Shown here one piece after another: positions 2,963 to 45,891 of a DNA stretch of 64,000 nt. Position 1 is the first letter of the stretch; every line of letters starts with the position of its first letter. The position numbers and the translations under genes are program-made. Below the pieces are notes generated by a model. The model was given only the letters and a program-made list of their open reading frames with translations. It ran no database searches and had not been told where the DNA came from. The DNA comes from a virus. The stretch is from the IMG/VR virus record IMGVR_UViG_3300027906_000002, positions 62,001 through 126,000 of that record. One strand, given 5' to 3'.

Positions 2963-2995
2963 TATGCTCTCTAGTTAACACTCACTTCTAAACAA

Positions 2996-3181
2996 ATGCA
3001 GTATAAAGTATATGATTCTAAAGACAAATTACATGGCACGTTTGAATCAGTTTTAGATCTCGAATTGTACATGGATGCTGTTAGAAACTCTAGGGGAGAA
3101 AGGTATAAAGATTTACCTAAACATTCGTGCTTTGATTATATCAAATCTATCGGATGGTTTATGGACATTGTTGACAATTAG
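2996..3181 (+). CDS. hypothetical protein, 61 aa
   Basis: This small protein (MQYKVYDSKDKLHGTFESV...) starts with a beta-hairpin-like segment and continues with a helix (VLDLELYMDAVRNSRG). It is mildly basic near the middle and has one Cys. The gene lies between the TATAAT/inverted-repeat element and the next gene, which starts 13 bases after its stop. No family recognised. Confidence 0.6.
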   Translation: MQYKVYDSKDKLHGTFESVLDLELYMDAVRNSRGERYKDLPKHSCFDYIKSIGWFMDIVDN

Positions 3182-3194
3182 TGGGGTTAATCAT

Positions 3195-3473
3195 ATGCGA
3201 TTCAATGACTTTAAGAAAGGACAAATTGTCCGTTTTAAAGATGAAGTAGGAGAGGTTAATTTCATTGACAAAATGTACATAACTCTTACACTGCATAGGT
3301 GGAAGAAACCCCCAGAATTAGCAGAAGGTAGTTGTTACCCATATGGAGAAGTTAACCTGCTATGTAACAATAAATACTGGGATGATTTGGAGTTGTTAAA
3401 TGATACGGAAGACACACAAGATAGTGCCGCTATGTATAAATCACAAGAGGGAAGATATGGAGACGTACAATGA
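3195..3473 (+). CDS. hypothetical protein, 92 aa, possible small beta-barrel
   Basis: The open frame extends upstream through the previous gene, but the ATG at 3195 follows that gene's stop and has a GTGGGG Shine-Dalgarno-like element. The first 55 residues (MRFNDFKKGQIVRFKDEVGE; VNFIDKMYITLTLHRW) look like a small beta-barrel of the kind in which KGQIVRFKDEVG forms the first strand-turn-strand (KOW/SH3-like). That is an impression from the pattern only. The C-terminus is acidic and polar. Its stop overlaps the next start as ATGA. Confidence 0.6.
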   Translation: MRFNDFKKGQIVRFKDEVGEVNFIDKMYITLTLHRWKKPPELAEGSCYPYGEVNLLCNNKYWDDLELLNDTEDTQDSAAMYKSQEGRYGDVQ

Positions 3474-39547: not shown

Positions 39548-40774
39548 ATGGCCAAACAATCACTAAATCTTGGTACGGTAGCTAATGATAACACAGGGGA
39601 TACCCTGCGTGGTGGAGGCGACAAGATAAACGATAATTTTAATGAAGTATATTCTGCTATTGGTAATGGTACTAATATAACTGTTGATGTTACTAACCCT
39701 GCAGTGGGGCAGGTATTGAGGTACAATGGATCTCTATTCGCTCCATCTGATTATGCTAATTTAACATCATCAATGGATGTTAATGGAAACTCTATAGTTT
39801 CTTCTAGTGGTGGAGATATTAATATTGCATGCAATGGTACTGGTAACCTGACACTTGGTGTAGGTGGTATTAATAATACTTTTAATGGTACTGATGGCGT
39901 TATTGATATGCCAACAAAGGTTAAGTATAAGAATGAATTTTCCGCATTAGGAAATGCTCCTTCTGCTGCATCTTACGGAGGTTATTTTTTCACTGTTGAT
40001 GGTGATGATAATCCTTATGTGAATATTAATATTACTACTGGTGGTGTTGGAGATGTTAGAGCAAAGATAGCAACTGAATATTCTAGTATTGATTTATTAG
40101 GGGATGTAGATACTACAACTGCAGCTCCTACAAACTTACAAGTTTTAAAGTGGAGTGCATCTGCAAGTAAATGGACTCCTCAAGATGATGAATCTGGTCT
40201 TTCATCATTGAACACATGGGCAGTTATTGATGGTGATACTGGATCTACAACAGCAAATGCACAAGCAGATACGTTAACTATTGCTGGTGGAACTAATATA
40301 ACAACGACAGTTGTTGGTGATACCTTAACAGTAGATTTTAGTGGTACTTTAACTACTACTTTAGCAGCATTATCTGATACTGATTTATCTACAGTAGTTC
40401 AAGGGGATTCATTATTCTATAATGGTACTAATTGGATTCCTACTAGGAGTCCAATTACCTGGTGGGAATTGAATGCTAATGGTGCATCAGACTACACATT
40501 TAATGGACCTGGATTTGCATCTGCTACTGCTGACGCAACTCTTTATGTTATGAGGGGTCAAACATATGCTTTTGACAATACTGTTCAAGCAACTGCACAC
40601 CCATTTAGAATTCAAAGTACTCAAGGTTTGACAGGAACTCCTTATACTACAGGACAGACTGGTAGTGGAACAGGTGTTCTTTATTGGACAGTTCCTATGG
40701 GTTCACCTAGTACTCTTTATTATCAATGTACACTCCATGCAGCGATGCAAGGAACTATTAACGTAGTTGGTTAG
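39548..40774 (+). CDS. fibre-like structural protein with C-terminal cupredoxin domain, 408 aa
   Basis: The N-terminus (SLNLGTVANDNTGDTLRGGG, then KINDNFNEVYSAIG) is the typical attachment segment of many cyanophage fibre/baseplate proteins. The middle is low-complexity and beta-rich, with SIDLLGDVDTTTAAPTNLQV-type fibre motifs. The last 110 residues look like a cupredoxin: LYVMRGQTYAFDN, then H351 (AHPFRIQS), then VPMGSPSTLYYQCTLHAAMQG with C394, H397 and M400. This is a complete H...C-x2-H-x2-M type-1 copper ligand set, with the C-x2-H-x2-M spacing of amicyanin. Copper binding is an inference; the domain may be purely structural. It starts 20 bases after a late promoter and is followed 6 bases later by another cupredoxin-containing gene. 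Confidence 0.75.
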   Translation: MAKQSLNLGTVANDNTGDTLRGGGDKINDNFNEVYSAIGNGTNITVDVTNPAVGQVLRYNGSLFAPSDYANLTSSMDVNGNSIVSSSGGDINIACNGTGNLTLGVGGINNTFNGTDGVIDMPTKVKYKNEFSALGNAPSAASYGGYFFTVDGDDNPYVNINITTGGVGDVRAKIATEYSSIDLLGDVDTTTAAPTNLQVLKWSASASKWTPQDDESGLSSLNTWAVIDGDTGSTTANAQADTLTIAGGTNITTTVVGDTLTVDFSGTLTTTLAALSDTDLSTVVQGDSLFYNGTNWIPTRSPITWWELNANGASDYTFNGPGFASATADATLYVMRGQTYAFDNTVQATAHPFRIQSTQGLTGTPYTTGQTGSGTGVLYWTVPMGSPSTLYYQCTLHAAMQGTINVVG

Positions 40775-40780
40775 TAAGAT

Positions 40781-43777
40781 ATGGCAAGAACTGTTCCTGG
40801 ATCTGGTGCTGTAATTGAACCTATATTTGACGAAAAATTTGGTGTTCGTGCAATACAAGTAGTTGATGGTGGTATAGGTTATGATGTAACCAATCCTCCA
40901 CGATTGACTGTTACTGGATGTGGTACTCCGACTCAGGAAGCACTTCTATATCCAATTATTGATGAGTTATCTGGAAGGATAGTTCATGTTAGAGTTTTAG
41001 AAAGAGGTCTTGGATACGACCCTCTTAGATTGCAGATAATACCTACACAAGACACACCAACTGTCGTTCGTTCTTTTGATATCAATAGGATATGGCAGTC
41101 ACATCCCAATTCACCCACATCTGGTTTATTCACTTCCGATAGTGACAGACTGAGAATACAAAGTGATAATCATCCAAAACCAACACCACTATTAGCAGAG
41201 AGAGCTCCTGGTGGTGGATCTGGTGGTACTCTTGCTCAGTATACACCTTCAGCAATTAACTACAATCCTACTACTGGTTTAATGGAAATGACCATTGGTA
41301 GTCATAGTTATACTACAGGTGATAGCATTAAAATTGGAACTGATTCATTAACATTTACTTGTGCGTTAGATGATCATGGAACCGATCATACATATCCTCG
41401 TGCAACTGATCCAGTAGCAGGTGTTGCTATACCAATTCTTTCTACAACATCTACAACTATTACAGTACAAGTACTGGGTGTTGCTCCTGCAACTAATACC
41501 AGTGCTCATACCTTTAAGTCTGCTACTTTTGGTGCAGTTAGTAGTGGTGGATCATTAGTAGATCGTTCATTTGATCAAACTTACATTTATAGGGGTGGTA
41601 AAGATGCTCCGAATCCTGATGCTAGAGAAGAGCAACTTAATAAGGCATTAGGTCTATTGGCAAATGGAGTTCAACTTCATACTCCAGAATGGGGTCAAGC
41701 TGGCAATCCTACTCCTGGATTTTCAATTGATTCAGTTAAACATTCGCATATTAAAAGTAATACTTCTTCTGATGCAGTAATAGATGGTAACACTTATTAC
41801 TATCAATCATCTAGATTGATTTCTGAGTTTGCTGAACATAATGGTGTGTTTGATTGGGGTAAGATTAGACCTTTTACTTGGAATATAAAAACAGAATTTG
41901 ACAACTTGATGTTTGAGGTTGGTAGTGTTGATGAAACTTTAGGTGTAGTTGAGATTGGTAGGACTATAGATGCTATAGCTACCACTGCTAAAGCAGAAAT
42001 TGCGAAGATTGTAAGAAATAATTTAGGAAGTATAACCCACATTTATGTTAGAAATATAAGAGGGTCTGATGAATTTGCTGAGAATAATGTTGTTTTGGGA
42101 TCTACTGGATTTAGTTTTAAAATATTAGAACCACCAACAGAGTTAACTAACGGTATTTTTTATATTGATTTTGGTCCAGATGCTACAGAGTTTGGTCCTT
42201 TTGTTGATGGTCAATATTACTTTGCACCAGAAAATATTAAGGTGCAAAGAAATTATTTAATTATTTGGAATCAGACCGATTCAACTAATCAACCTTCTGG
42301 GAATCATCCTCATGGACATCCTATGCAGTTTAGTACCACACAGGATGGGTTGTTAAATGGTGGTAGTTTATATTATAAGAGTACGGGAGTAACAGAAGCA
42401 CCATCTACAGATTATGAAAATGAGTTTAAACCTCTATTCATAATGAATGGTGATGAGAATAGTAGAATTTATTATTACTGTAAGTATCACAGATATATGT
42501 CTGGGTATGAAGGTCATGAAGGATATATGACTTTGGATCTAGAAATAGATGATGATCCTTTACCTAATGATTATTATATTACAGACTATTATCAGAGTGA
42601 TGATAGTGATCCTAATACGATAAATTATTCACGGCATGCTGATGGTCATTCTAAAATATTAGGAATGGCATTTGATGGATATCCAATTTATGGACCTTAT
42701 GGATATGATTTAAGTGGTACTAGTGTTTTAGATACTATCCCAGTTTTATCTGAATATGCTGGTCTTTTCTTCCAGGTTGGTAATGGTTACCCAACTTCAA
42801 ATAACGATCCTGCACAAACTGGTACTGGTTGTATTGTTGATGTAGTTACAATTGGTACTTATCAGCCTGGTGGTATTCTTACAATTAGGATAGCTGAAGG
42901 TGGAAGTGGATATGCTATTGGTGATAAAATTAGAATCCTTCATAAGTATGATGGAGCATTGGTATCTGGATATTCGCATAGTTCTTGGAATGCTAATCCA
43001 GATAGAACTGAAGGAGTATATGGTGAAGTTGGTACTGCGTCTGAATTCACAATTCCAGCTTCATGGACTTCTGCTAATGGTGTTGGTGGTAAACCTAAAG
43101 TTACTGTTGCTGCTGATGGTTCTATAAGTGGTTTTACTATGGGTGGCAATGGACCTGAGGCAATACCTGGACCAGATGGTAATATGGGATATAATTATGT
43201 CGAAGATGAGGAGTTTACTATTCCTGGTAATTACATTGGTGGATCTACTCCTGCAGGTGATATACTAGTCAGAGTTGCTTGGGCTACTGATGATGATAGT
43301 GGAGTTGCTGAAATTACTTCTGTAGGTACTGGTCTTAAAAGAGAAGTTACTGGATTTAGATACAGAGTAGGTGATGAATTAGCTGGTGCTAGACCTGATG
43401 TAGTTACTCCAGAAACTATAACTTATGTTGTAACAGTTGCTAATGGTGAGTTTAATATTGGTGGTAGTACTGTTCCTTTCTTAAGTTTATGGAGAGGAAA
43501 GACATATGTATTCCAACAGAATGATTCTAGTAATGATAATGAACAGTTATTAATATCTACTACTGATGATGGATGGCATGCTGGCACTCCACCAGATACA
43601 ACATATCTTTTTGAAGGACCAGGTATTACCTATTGGTTAGAAGGATCTGAAGTAACTTATAGTGCTTATATTAGTGGGTTTAATGCTGCTACTGCAAGAG
43701 AGATAAGATTTGAAGTACCTGTAAATCTCCTCTTGCTTTGTATACCTTTGGTTATACAACTTCTGGTATTGGTATAA
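40781..43777 (+). CDS. cupredoxin/YHYH virion protein, 5' part of a frameshifted gene
   Basis: 998 codons, but I believe the real gene runs to 45891 through a -1 shift near 43726. Parts in order: a GxGY start (GGIGYDVTNPPRL); one TFTC/YPR repeat (about residues 152-250); a helical middle; a cupredoxin-like domain (about 465-590) with H513 (HGHPMQF), C567, H570 and M573 (YYYCKYHRYMSG), the same C-x2-H-x2-M spacing as in the upstream protein; half of a YHYH domain (GMAFDGYPIYGPYGY, about 631-645); GxGY repeats; then a second cupredoxin-like domain without ligands, cut off at FEVPVN. The last 17 codons (LLLLCIPLVIQLLVLV) are out-of-frame sequence. It follows the fibre-like gene by 6 bases and probably shares its late promoter. 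Confidence 0.8.
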   Translation: MARTVPGSGAVIEPIFDEKFGVRAIQVVDGGIGYDVTNPPRLTVTGCGTPTQEALLYPIIDELSGRIVHVRVLERGLGYDPLRLQIIPTQDTPTVVRSFDINRIWQSHPNSPTSGLFTSDSDRLRIQSDNHPKPTPLLAERAPGGGSGGTLAQYTPSAINYNPTTGLMEMTIGSHSYTTGDSIKIGTDSLTFTCALDDHGTDHTYPRATDPVAGVAIPILSTTSTTITVQVLGVAPATNTSAHTFKSATFGAVSSGGSLVDRSFDQTYIYRGGKDAPNPDAREEQLNKALGLLANGVQLHTPEWGQAGNPTPGFSIDSVKHSHIKSNTSSDAVIDGNTYYYQSSRLISEFAEHNGVFDWGKIRPFTWNIKTEFDNLMFEVGSVDETLGVVEIGRTIDAIATTAKAEIAKIVRNNLGSITHIYVRNIRGSDEFAENNVVLGSTGFSFKILEPPTELTNGIFYIDFGPDATEFGPFVDGQYYFAPENIKVQRNYLIIWNQTDSTNQPSGNHPHGHPMQFSTTQDGLLNGGSLYYKSTGVTEAPSTDYENEFKPLFIMNGDENSRIYYYCKYHRYMSGYEGHEGYMTLDLEIDDDPLPNDYYITDYYQSDDSDPNTINYSRHADGHSKILGMAFDGYPIYGPYGYDLSGTSVLDTIPVLSEYAGLFFQVGNGYPTSNNDPAQTGTGCIVDVVTIGTYQPGGILTIRIAEGGSGYAIGDKIRILHKYDGALVSGYSHSSWNANPDRTEGVYGEVGTASEFTIPASWTSANGVGGKPKVTVAADGSISGFTMGGNGPEAIPGPDGNMGYNYVEDEEFTIPGNYIGGSTPAGDILVRVAWATDDDSGVAEITSVGTGLKREVTGFRYRVGDELAGARPDVVTPETITYVVTVANGEFNIGGSTVPFLSLWRGKTYVFQQNDSSNDNEQLLISTTDDGWHAGTPPDTTYLFEGPGITYWLEGSEVTYSAYISGFNAATAREIRFEVPVNLLLLCIPLVIQLLVLV

Positions 43778-45891
43778 GAACAGTTCAAGATGGATATGTA
43801 ATTGGAGATTTGGTTCAGGATTATATTTGGGATACTACTGTTGGTACTTTGGATGAGCATAATGGTAAATTCGCTGTTACTCCTGAATATCCAAATGGAA
43901 CCTATGCATACTTCTTAACAGAGAATGCTAGTGGGGTTCCAACTTACCCTTATGCAATTGGACCAACAATGTATGGTACTCCTTTGTTTGAGGGTGATAT
44001 TGTTCCTACTCAACCAGATACATTCCCAGCTGGTGCAGCAGGAGATATTGTATTGAATACTGATGGTACTGTCAGTTATGTTAAGATGACCAAAAAAGGT
44101 GATAACTATTTTGGTTCAGCAACAGCAAGAATATTAGGTGGAGAAGGTGCTGGTGCTACAGGAACACCTACTGTACAGACAATTACGGGTTTATCACTAT
44201 TACAAGGTGGAAGAGATTATGCCACACCTCCAACACTTATCTTTGAAGGTGGTGGAGGTCAAGGTGCTCAAGGTGCTGCTGAGATTGATACACTTGGTAA
44301 AGTTACTAATATTAGTATTGTAGATGAGGGTGAGTATTATCAAGAACCTCCTTATATTCTTATTAATGGTGGTGGTGGAATTGGTGCTAAAGCTATAGCA
44401 AAAGTTACTCAAGGTGTTGTTACTGATATTGAAATTACAGATCCAGGTAGCGGATATATTGATCAACCGAAAGTAATATTTACAAAATTAGTTAACTTAA
44501 AACGTAAATCTAGATCTAGACAGGCATACAATTCTATTGCTGGTTTCCTTACTGGTCTTGTTAAGAATGTACAAAAGTCTGATACTGAATTGTATGTTGA
44601 TTCTACTGATGCTTTCCCTGGTTCTGGTGAGTTAATCCTCAATAAAGAAACTATTGCATATACAGCTAAATCTAAAGGTAAATTCTCTGGTCTAACTAGA
44701 GGAGTTAATTTCAATTTTGATCAGAGAATTATTCTTGATTCTGGACAAATTGATGGTGATGGTAATTCAACTTATAAGTTTAATGTTAATGATAGAGTTA
44801 TTAGAAAAATTGAAAGTGAAGCTAATAAAGTTGCGAAGGTATATGACTGGGATCCAACAACTAGAGAATTGTTAGTAACATTTGAAGTTGATGAATTGGC
44901 ATTTATTGATGCTGGAATACCATCAACTGAAGATGCTATTGTTCAATTTGATGCTGGTCTTGCAGGATCTGCCCCAGGTGGGTTTAATCCTCATGTTCTC
45001 TTAGATGTAGATTCTACTGAAGGTGTATATATTGTAGCTTTGACAGAACCAATATCTCAAGTAATAGATAAAGAATTTGAAGATAATGATGAATTGGATG
45101 GTGCTGGAGATGGAATTATAGATCTTGTTAACTCAGGAACTGATTATGAAAATCAAATAAATCTTGATGGTGGTATTCATACTTCATTATATGGTATTGA
45201 AGAAACTCAAGGTGGTCAGAATACAACTTTATTCCAAGTTGGTGATCAGGTTAAAGATGGTAGTTTGCCATTTAAGTATGCTACAGTTAGTGATGCAGGT
45301 ACTTTAACTGATGGTGTTCCACATGCTGCACTCATAAATTTATATCTAGATCCTAATCTTTCTAATGGATTGAGTTTCGGTGTTAACGAAATTGTTACTG
45401 GATCTGTTTCTGGTGTTAGAGCAAATGTAGTTTCTTGGGATCCAGTTAATACCATACTTACAGTTCAGGATATAACTCCATTTAATACTGGTGATGTTAA
45501 TGTAGGTATAGGTGGATATTTGTATGAGTTTTCACATGATAGTACTGTAGTTGATTTTGTAATTCAAAGTCCAGGTACTAACTATACAGCAGTTCCAACA
45601 GTAACAGTTGAGAATATTGGTGATATACAATGTCAAGCAACTGTTAATTTAACATCTGCTCAAGACCAAGTTGCTTCATGCACCATTACTAATGGTGGTT
45701 ATGGAATCGTTGCATCGGTTGATAATACATATAACACACACCCAACAGTAACTTTTGTTAATGCTGTAGGAGATTCTACTGGAAATGGAGCAGCTGCTGC
45801 AGTAATTTTGGGTGGAGAAGACATCATGGGTAATAGCGGTGCTACTTACAGACTCAAGAGAATTGAGTATTCTGCACAACTCCGTTCGTAA
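43738..45891 (+). CDS. 3' part of the same frameshifted virion protein
   Basis: The frame is open from 43714 and could only start at a TTG (43738) that has no Shine-Dalgarno sequence, so it is unlikely to be an independent gene. Read together with the 5' part it restores VPVNSPLALYTF, which matches VPMGSPSTLYYQ of the neighbouring cupredoxin. It also supplies the missing half of the YHYH domain (TLDEHNGKFAVTPEYPNGTY, paralleling LDQYNGRFCKTPDYPEGRY in the giant protein). Downstream there are three or more GxGY repeats (GGRDYATPPTLIF, GEYYQEPPYILI, GSGYIDQPKVIF), then beta-rich sequence. The full protein would be about 1703 aa. A late promoter follows its stop. Confidence 0.75.
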   Translation: MYTFGYTTSGIGIRTVQDGYVIGDLVQDYIWDTTVGTLDEHNGKFAVTPEYPNGTYAYFLTENASGVPTYPYAIGPTMYGTPLFEGDIVPTQPDTFPAGAAGDIVLNTDGTVSYVKMTKKGDNYFGSATARILGGEGAGATGTPTVQTITGLSLLQGGRDYATPPTLIFEGGGGQGAQGAAEIDTLGKVTNISIVDEGEYYQEPPYILINGGGGIGAKAIAKVTQGVVTDIEITDPGSGYIDQPKVIFTKLVNLKRKSRSRQAYNSIAGFLTGLVKNVQKSDTELYVDSTDAFPGSGELILNKETIAYTAKSKGKFSGLTRGVNFNFDQRIILDSGQIDGDGNSTYKFNVNDRVIRKIESEANKVAKVYDWDPTTRELLVTFEVDELAFIDAGIPSTEDAIVQFDAGLAGSAPGGFNPHVLLDVDSTEGVYIVALTEPISQVIDKEFEDNDELDGAGDGIIDLVNSGTDYENQINLDGGIHTSLYGIEETQGGQNTTLFQVGDQVKDGSLPFKYATVSDAGTLTDGVPHAALINLYLDPNLSNGLSFGVNEIVTGSVSGVRANVVSWDPVNTILTVQDITPFNTGDVNVGIGGYLYEFSHDSTVVDFVIQSPGTNYTAVPTVTVENIGDIQCQATVNLTSAQDQVASCTITNGGYGIVASVDNTYNTHPTVTFVNAVGDSTGNGAAAAVILGGEDIMGNSGATYRLKRIEYSAQLRS

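Follow-up and report, generated by a model that had tools for sequence, protein, structure and literature searches.

The genes at the locus

The window studied here is a stretch of 64,000 nucleotides, bases 62001-126000 of the 179,402-base virus record IMGVR_UViG_3300027906_000002, which is of the T4-like marine cyanophage type. Two neighbouring genes within it encode proteins of the baseplate family, and each protein contains a domain with a histidine, a cysteine, a second histidine and a methionine (HCHM) in the order of a type-1 copper site. We call the domain at the C-terminus of the first protein, of gp9 type, D1, and that in the second, the gp10-locus protein, D2. A third domain, D3, lies further along the gp10-locus protein. 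The features are given below in window coordinates, with lengths in amino acids (aa).

39548..40774, plus strand: gp9-type baseplate wedge / tail-fibre connector, 408 aa (PHROG 677, Pfam T4_gp9_10_N)
40448..40771, plus strand: D1, predicted cupredoxin domain, gp9 residues 301-408 (AlphaFold2, Foldseek, ligand alignment)
40598-40600, 40727-40729, 40736-40738 and 40745-40747, plus strand: codons of the D1 ligands H351, C394, H397 and M400
40781..43777, plus strand: gp10-locus baseplate wedge protein, 998-aa N-terminal part (phrog_708; PHROG 708, E 1e-298)
42101..42580, plus strand: D2, cupredoxin-like domain, gp10-locus residues 441-600 (54-sequence alignment, hhalign, AlphaFold2, Foldseek)
42317-42319, 42479-42481, 42488-42490 and 42497-42499, plus strand: codons of the D2 ligands H513, C567, H570 and M573
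42611..42709, plus strand: first part of a YHYH domain (PF14240), residues 611-643 corresponding to profile positions 80-113 (21.7 bits, under the cut-off of 25)
43418..43839, plus strand: D3, third cupredoxin-like domain, between the two YHYH pieces, with all four ligands lost
43738..45891, plus strand: C-terminal part of the gp10-locus protein, a 717-aa open reading frame (ORF) with the second YHYH piece

The 408-aa protein matches PHROG 677 ('baseplate wedge tail fiber protein connector') with an expectation value (E) of 1e-185. Its residues 3-109 match Pfam T4_gp9_10_N (PF07880) at 43.3 bits against a cut-off of 25, as expected for the N-terminus of a T4 gp9-type protein. It shares with T4 gp9 this N-terminal domain and the annotation as long-tail-fibre connector, and differs from it in the C-terminal cupredoxin module, which among the GenBank phages searched is found almost exclusively in marine cyanophages. 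The N-terminal part is common to enterobacterial T4-type phages, mostly over the first 40-75 residues only, and the cupredoxin C-terminus therefore seems to be a replacement or an addition particular to this lineage.

A frameshift divides the second protein between two ORFs that overlap and lie in different frames, with the break inside D3 (~43727-43777). The 717-aa ORF corresponds to positions 669-1382 of the PHROG 708 profile (E 0), and its residues 22-65 match YHYH at 39.5 bits against a cut-off of 25. Together the 998-aa and 717-aa ORFs cover one PHROG 708 'baseplate wedge subunit' (profile length 1383 positions). The protein has a length of about 1400-1700 aa in relatives and is uninterrupted, at ~1500-1700 aa, in three near-identical contigs, which makes a mistake in assembly or a small, recent alteration the likely cause of the break at 43727-43777. 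The next gene is gp8, and the order gp9 - gp10-locus protein - gp8 recurs in named cyanophages. A preliminary description of this DNA had taken the 408-aa and 998-aa ORFs for virion or tail proteins. They are better assigned to the baseplate family, and the 998-aa ORF is only the N-terminal part of a longer protein. Residues 192-207 of the gp10-locus protein form a further FTC-...-H-x-YPR unit of the kind found in at least 22 repeats in the 8394-aa structural protein at 14341-39525, where the cysteine is recurrent and the histidine mostly so.

The ligand set in two baseplate proteins

The preliminary description had located the putative ligands at H351, C394, H397 and M400 of the 408-aa ORF and at H513, C567, H570 and M573 of the 998-aa ORF, and the translation agrees exactly. 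It had also likened the spacing to that of amicyanin, and C-x2-H-x2-M is indeed present in both. In each protein a His-Pro lies ~43-54 residues upstream of this motif. A scan of all ORFs of 40 aa or more across the 179-kb record shows C-x2-H-x2-M only in these two proteins and in one 40-aa chance ORF. All four ligands are retained in 81 of 81 distinct gp9 sequences and in 85 of 87 homologues of D2. Since the tblastn search behind these homologues took no account of the ligands and the full set is kept nonetheless, the motif is not a matter of chance. A possible second 'HxH' site in D2 (H509/H511) was dropped, as H511 is not conserved and H509 is present in 31 of 54 sequences.

The predicted fold

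An AlphaFold2 model of D1 built with 37 related sequences has a predicted local distance difference test score (pLDDT) of 95.6 and a predicted template-modelling (TM) score of 0.88. When it was compared with the PDB using Foldseek, all 15 matches at E<=0.001 were blue-copper or multicopper proteins, including copper nitrite reductase, rusticyanin, pseudoazurin, amicyanin and laccase. TM scores by query length were 0.44-0.56, and the model has the Greek-key beta-sandwich of the family. In domain numbering, H351 lies just before the predicted strand 53-56, C394 ends strand 89-94 and M400 lies just before the last strand, 101-107; this is the ligand layout of a cupredoxin. From the model, we regard it as near certain that the gp9 C-terminal domain has a cupredoxin fold. 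Among the viral models of BFVD, 'beta-sandwich proteins' in records named for Pithovirus and Marseillevirus match the model of the gp9 domain with E ~1e-6.

For D2 the AlphaFold2 model has a pLDDT of 86, and its best match in the PDB is a weak one to laccase (E 0.027, probability 0.69). An hhalign comparison of D2 with the gp9 domain places the ligands in register with E 0.001, at a probability of just 22%. The D2 profile also matches other phage copies of the cupredoxin domain, those of S-TIM5 (8.5e-9) and P-HM2 (6.5e-8). The assignment of D2 is made mainly because of the in-register alignment with D1 and these matches. The cupredoxin-like context attributed earlier to both domains is thus borne out for D1 by fold prediction, Foldseek and profile links, and is less certain for D2.

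Relationship to known cupredoxins

The gp9 domain of the window gives no match to Copper-bind (PF00127, cut-off 21.2 bits), and alone it falls under every curated cut-off. Other phage copies come closer. That of P-SSM2 is the nearest, at 21.1 bits on Copper-bind where 21.2 are needed, and that of P-HM2 scores 20.0 bits. The NCBIfam amicyanin model TIGR02657 matches 23 of 37 members of the gp9 alignment with a best E of 0.0032, and distant relatives reach ~23 bits, far below its cut-off of 110.2. Intermediate phage copies match the rusticyanin and amicyanin models at about 1e-4 to 1e-5, and with these scores and those on Copper-bind they bridge the gap between the domain in the window and true cupredoxins. 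The At5g54830-like domain (PF25489) is also matched weakly by 36 of 37 gp9 domains (best E 2e-4), always below the curated cut-off. A sequence search of the PDB with either domain returned no usable match. The gp9 profile finds copper nitrite reductase there weakly and in register (E 0.13); matches to tetratricopeptide repeat (TPR) proteins and antibodies were rejected as chance.

The same virus record has a separate gene for the plastocyanin PetE (record positions 129738-129983; Copper-bind 68.4 bits). When a broad profile of the phage domains was aligned with PetE of this phage and its relatives, the probability was 91-94% with H, C, H and M in register, while 100 column-shuffled plastocyanin profiles used as a control reached no more than 4%. 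The weak profile scores with rusticyanin, amicyanin and plastocyanin tie the phage family to the true cupredoxins. PetE and the baseplate domains would then share a cupredoxin ancestry, and their four ligands align. They differ in that PetE, with C-x2-H-x4-M, is a soluble electron carrier in its own right, whereas the baseplate domains have C-x2-H-x2-M and are embedded in structural proteins; the gp9 domain has neither the spacing nor the free-standing form of a plastocyanin. With amicyanin, rusticyanin and pseudoazurin (PF00127) the phage domains have in common the order of the ligands and, in the case of D1, the predicted fold, and with amicyanin the C-x2-H-x2-M spacing, but they are modules within virion baseplate proteins.

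Conservation of the ligands and the case for a metal site

The four ligands of gp9 are invariant in the 37-sequence alignment. In a 54-sequence alignment of D2 the H, C and H are invariant and the M is present in 53 of the 54. When 23 diverse domains with a mean identity of 32% were aligned, the four ligand columns were among the nine most conserved, and the only exceptions were the copy of phage PSS2 and D3 of the window. The preliminary description would have counted free replacement of the four residues among homologues against itself. D1 and D2 do not behave in this way; only the paralogous D3 and the PSS2 siphophage copy vary. The PSS2 copy is a stand-alone protein of 112 aa (2989-3327 of its stretch), annotated as a baseplate wedge subunit, in which H, C and H are lost and M is kept. 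Of 119 gp9 proteins, 107 have no cysteine other than C394, and conservation does not extend to C95, so that a role of C394 in an internal disulfide was rejected. The set of 119 was picked by a motif that includes the C, H and M, and was used solely for these cysteine counts.

A comparison of D2 with D3 serves as a natural control. The broad phage profile places D3 in the cupredoxin family at 98% probability, and the D3 profile matches the D3 of S-RIM14, which has HCHM, at 5e-41; by sequence D3 is orthologous to it. Among 91 distinct sequences HCHM is found in D3 in none, while D2 of the same 91 proteins has HCHM in 90 and HCHS in one. In this lineage the D3 columns at the ligand positions contain Q, N, E and others; A, S or G; T, S, N and others; and almost anything. 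Overall identity is nevertheless similar, 66% for D2 and 58% for D3. In gp10-locus proteins that lack D2 (those of S-RIM14, ACG-2014d, S-SSM4 and relatives) D3 has the full HCHM. Of the gp10-locus proteins scored, the site is confined to D2 in 101, and in ~16 it is in D3 with D2 absent. None has two complete sites, and none is without any, bar two with a Met-less D2. Judged from these sequences, the pattern is one site per gp10-locus protein either way.

An alternative is that the domains are purely structural beta-sandwiches, in which H, C, H and M hold the loop by packing and hydrogen bonds and the virion contains no metal. Ligand-less cupredoxin-like domains do exist, in PSS2 and as D3 in the very same protein. 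Packing alone, however, does not predict that the ligands are lost jointly or that each protein keeps one site. In D3, where the set has gone, the same two loops drift freely, and unrelated tail proteins of 15-65% identity retain all four ligands. We consider the metal-free explanation unlikely. In these alignments the pattern of loss and retention is better explained by selection on a metal site than by selection for the bare fold.

Several observations weigh against a metal site, or lessen the force of the evidence for it. Invariance among gp9 orthologues is weak evidence because ~40 of the 108 columns are invariant, as a structural domain would also allow. PSS2 has lost three of the four ligands yet kept the domain, and so the fold can persist without metal. 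In two gp10-locus proteins D2 lacks the axial methionine alone. The exchange between D2 and D3 might trace to one evolutionary event that two clades share, and would then count as one strong comparison and not a hundred. The model of D2 has no strong fold match, and profiles of D1 alone and of D2 alone match PetE at noise level. The first ligand histidine is followed by proline (HPF or HPM), where plastocyanin has asparagine (H62-N63 in the PetE alignment), and the usual second-shell contact therefore differs. The type-1 sites of multicopper oxidases also carry His-Pro. Lastly, the gp10-locus protein is named by position alone, and its identity with T4 gp10 is one of locus only.

Taking these together, it is likely from the sequences that D1 and D2 bind metal, and copper is the probable metal. 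Type-1 sites can also take zinc, as in azurin, and another thiophilic metal, mainly Zn(II), might form a redox-silent structural site, as a structural role requires no redox activity. The sequence holds nothing in favour of zinc, and the thioether methionine, of little use to Zn, is kept nearly everywhere; we think this highly improbable.

Distribution

A tblastn search matched the gp9 domain in 338 phage records of GenBank, almost all of them from cyanophages, and D2 in 217. Among the matches listed for the 338 records the gp9 domain is not called cupredoxin, and one record names a free copy PetE. P-SSM2, S-SKS1, P-GSP1 (Autographiviridae), S-TIM5, P-HM2, Sf-CH1b and the SAR11 phage HTVC028P carry further copies, which lie in tail fibres or structural proteins. 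The S-SKS1 copy (match at 3001-3276) has a lengthened ligand loop, C-x4-H-x2-M, with the four ligands kept. Another protein of the record studied here (record ~41072-42520, outside the window) has a degenerate cupredoxin-like domain, matched by the broad profile at E 2.7e-4, with Arg at the position of the first His and without the Cys-His-Met loop. A single search for a cellular origin returned only a cyanophage-like contig in a metagenome-assembled genome (MAG) of Rhodopirellula and one protein of a soil MAG.

We found no published report of such domains in the open-access literature, subscription papers lying outside the search. Within the open-access collection searched no paper combines cupredoxin with phage and baseplate, and the sole one containing both cupredoxin and cyanophage concerns Borgs and uses each word once. 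The domain with its conserved ligand set is a real and widespread feature, and is apparently undescribed.

A proposed role at the fibre-baseplate joint

T4 has 18 copies of gp9. The C-terminal domain carries the long tail fibre, and on triggering of the baseplate the protein binds gp10 (PMC3004832). If cyanophage gp9 works like that of T4, its cupredoxin sits at the joint between fibre and baseplate, and by this analogy its C-terminal domain would hold the long tail fibre.

The explanation we favour, and think rather more probable than not, is that the gp9 C-terminus and D2 of the gp10-locus protein are cupredoxin modules that keep a complete type-1 metal site in a structural or adhesive role. 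On this proposal the amicyanin-spaced site persists because its metal, most likely copper, is required. The protein would be synthesised without metal in the cytosol and would take it up following lysis or on the surface of the host. The metal, presumably copper, would clamp the His and Cys-His-Met loops together to give a rigid module, and the clamped cupredoxin would act as a structural or adhesive joint at the fibre-baseplate contact and not as an electron carrier.

Type-1 copper sites are textbook electron-transfer centres, and with such a ligand set a redox or sensing role may be considered. The oxidation state of tail copper might sense light or host state and modulate adsorption, as in the light-dependent adsorption of some cyanophages. 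By modelling, the dark adsorption of P-HM2 is estimated at near zero, whereas P-SSP7 does not behave in this way (PMC7112961). Two HCHM copies are present in P-HM2 and none in P-SSP7, a comparison of two phages that is confounded with phage type and is just a lead. A phage of the non-photosynthetic SAR11 bacteria has the domain too, which argues against a redox role specific to photosynthesis, and no redox partner is known for the phage domains. A redox or sensing role is speculative, and the sensor as a whole is very unlikely in our judgement.

Alternatively, displayed copper could engage a metal-uptake or metal-binding protein of the host surface, a copper analogue of the proposed iron Trojan-horse attachment. 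The iron HxH motifs of marine phage fibres have prompted a hypothesis of attachment by metal in the tail (PMC11705849), and the position at the fibre joint is probably exposed. The likeness to those fibres lies in the proposal of a metal site in a marine phage tail; there the metal is iron and the fibres are trimeric, whereas here the fold and ligand set are different and the proteins are baseplate connectors (PMC11705849). In gp9-bearing phages the sites are in connectors and not at fibre tips. In addition, type-1 sites hold their metal tightly, buried below the His edge. Of all the explanations, we give display of copper to the host the faintest chance.

That the ligands are kept almost without exception across hundreds of related viruses suggests that modules able to bind metal, probably copper, belong to the apparatus with which these viruses touch the host cell. 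A complete set under selection in phage baseplates would, if real, be a new use of the fold and would turn cyanophage particles into an ocean copper pool. In a further-reading form, which we consider distinctly unlikely, most marine T4-like cyanophages would have metalloprotein baseplates with something like tens of copper atoms per virion (18 if gp9 is at the T4 copy number, and more with the site of the gp10-locus protein), whose occupancy or redox state would control fibre attachment or triggering. If that were true, infection would be linked with light or with copper chemistry in the surface ocean. Where features of cyanophage attachment are still unexplained, the domain is a concrete molecular candidate that is easily tested.

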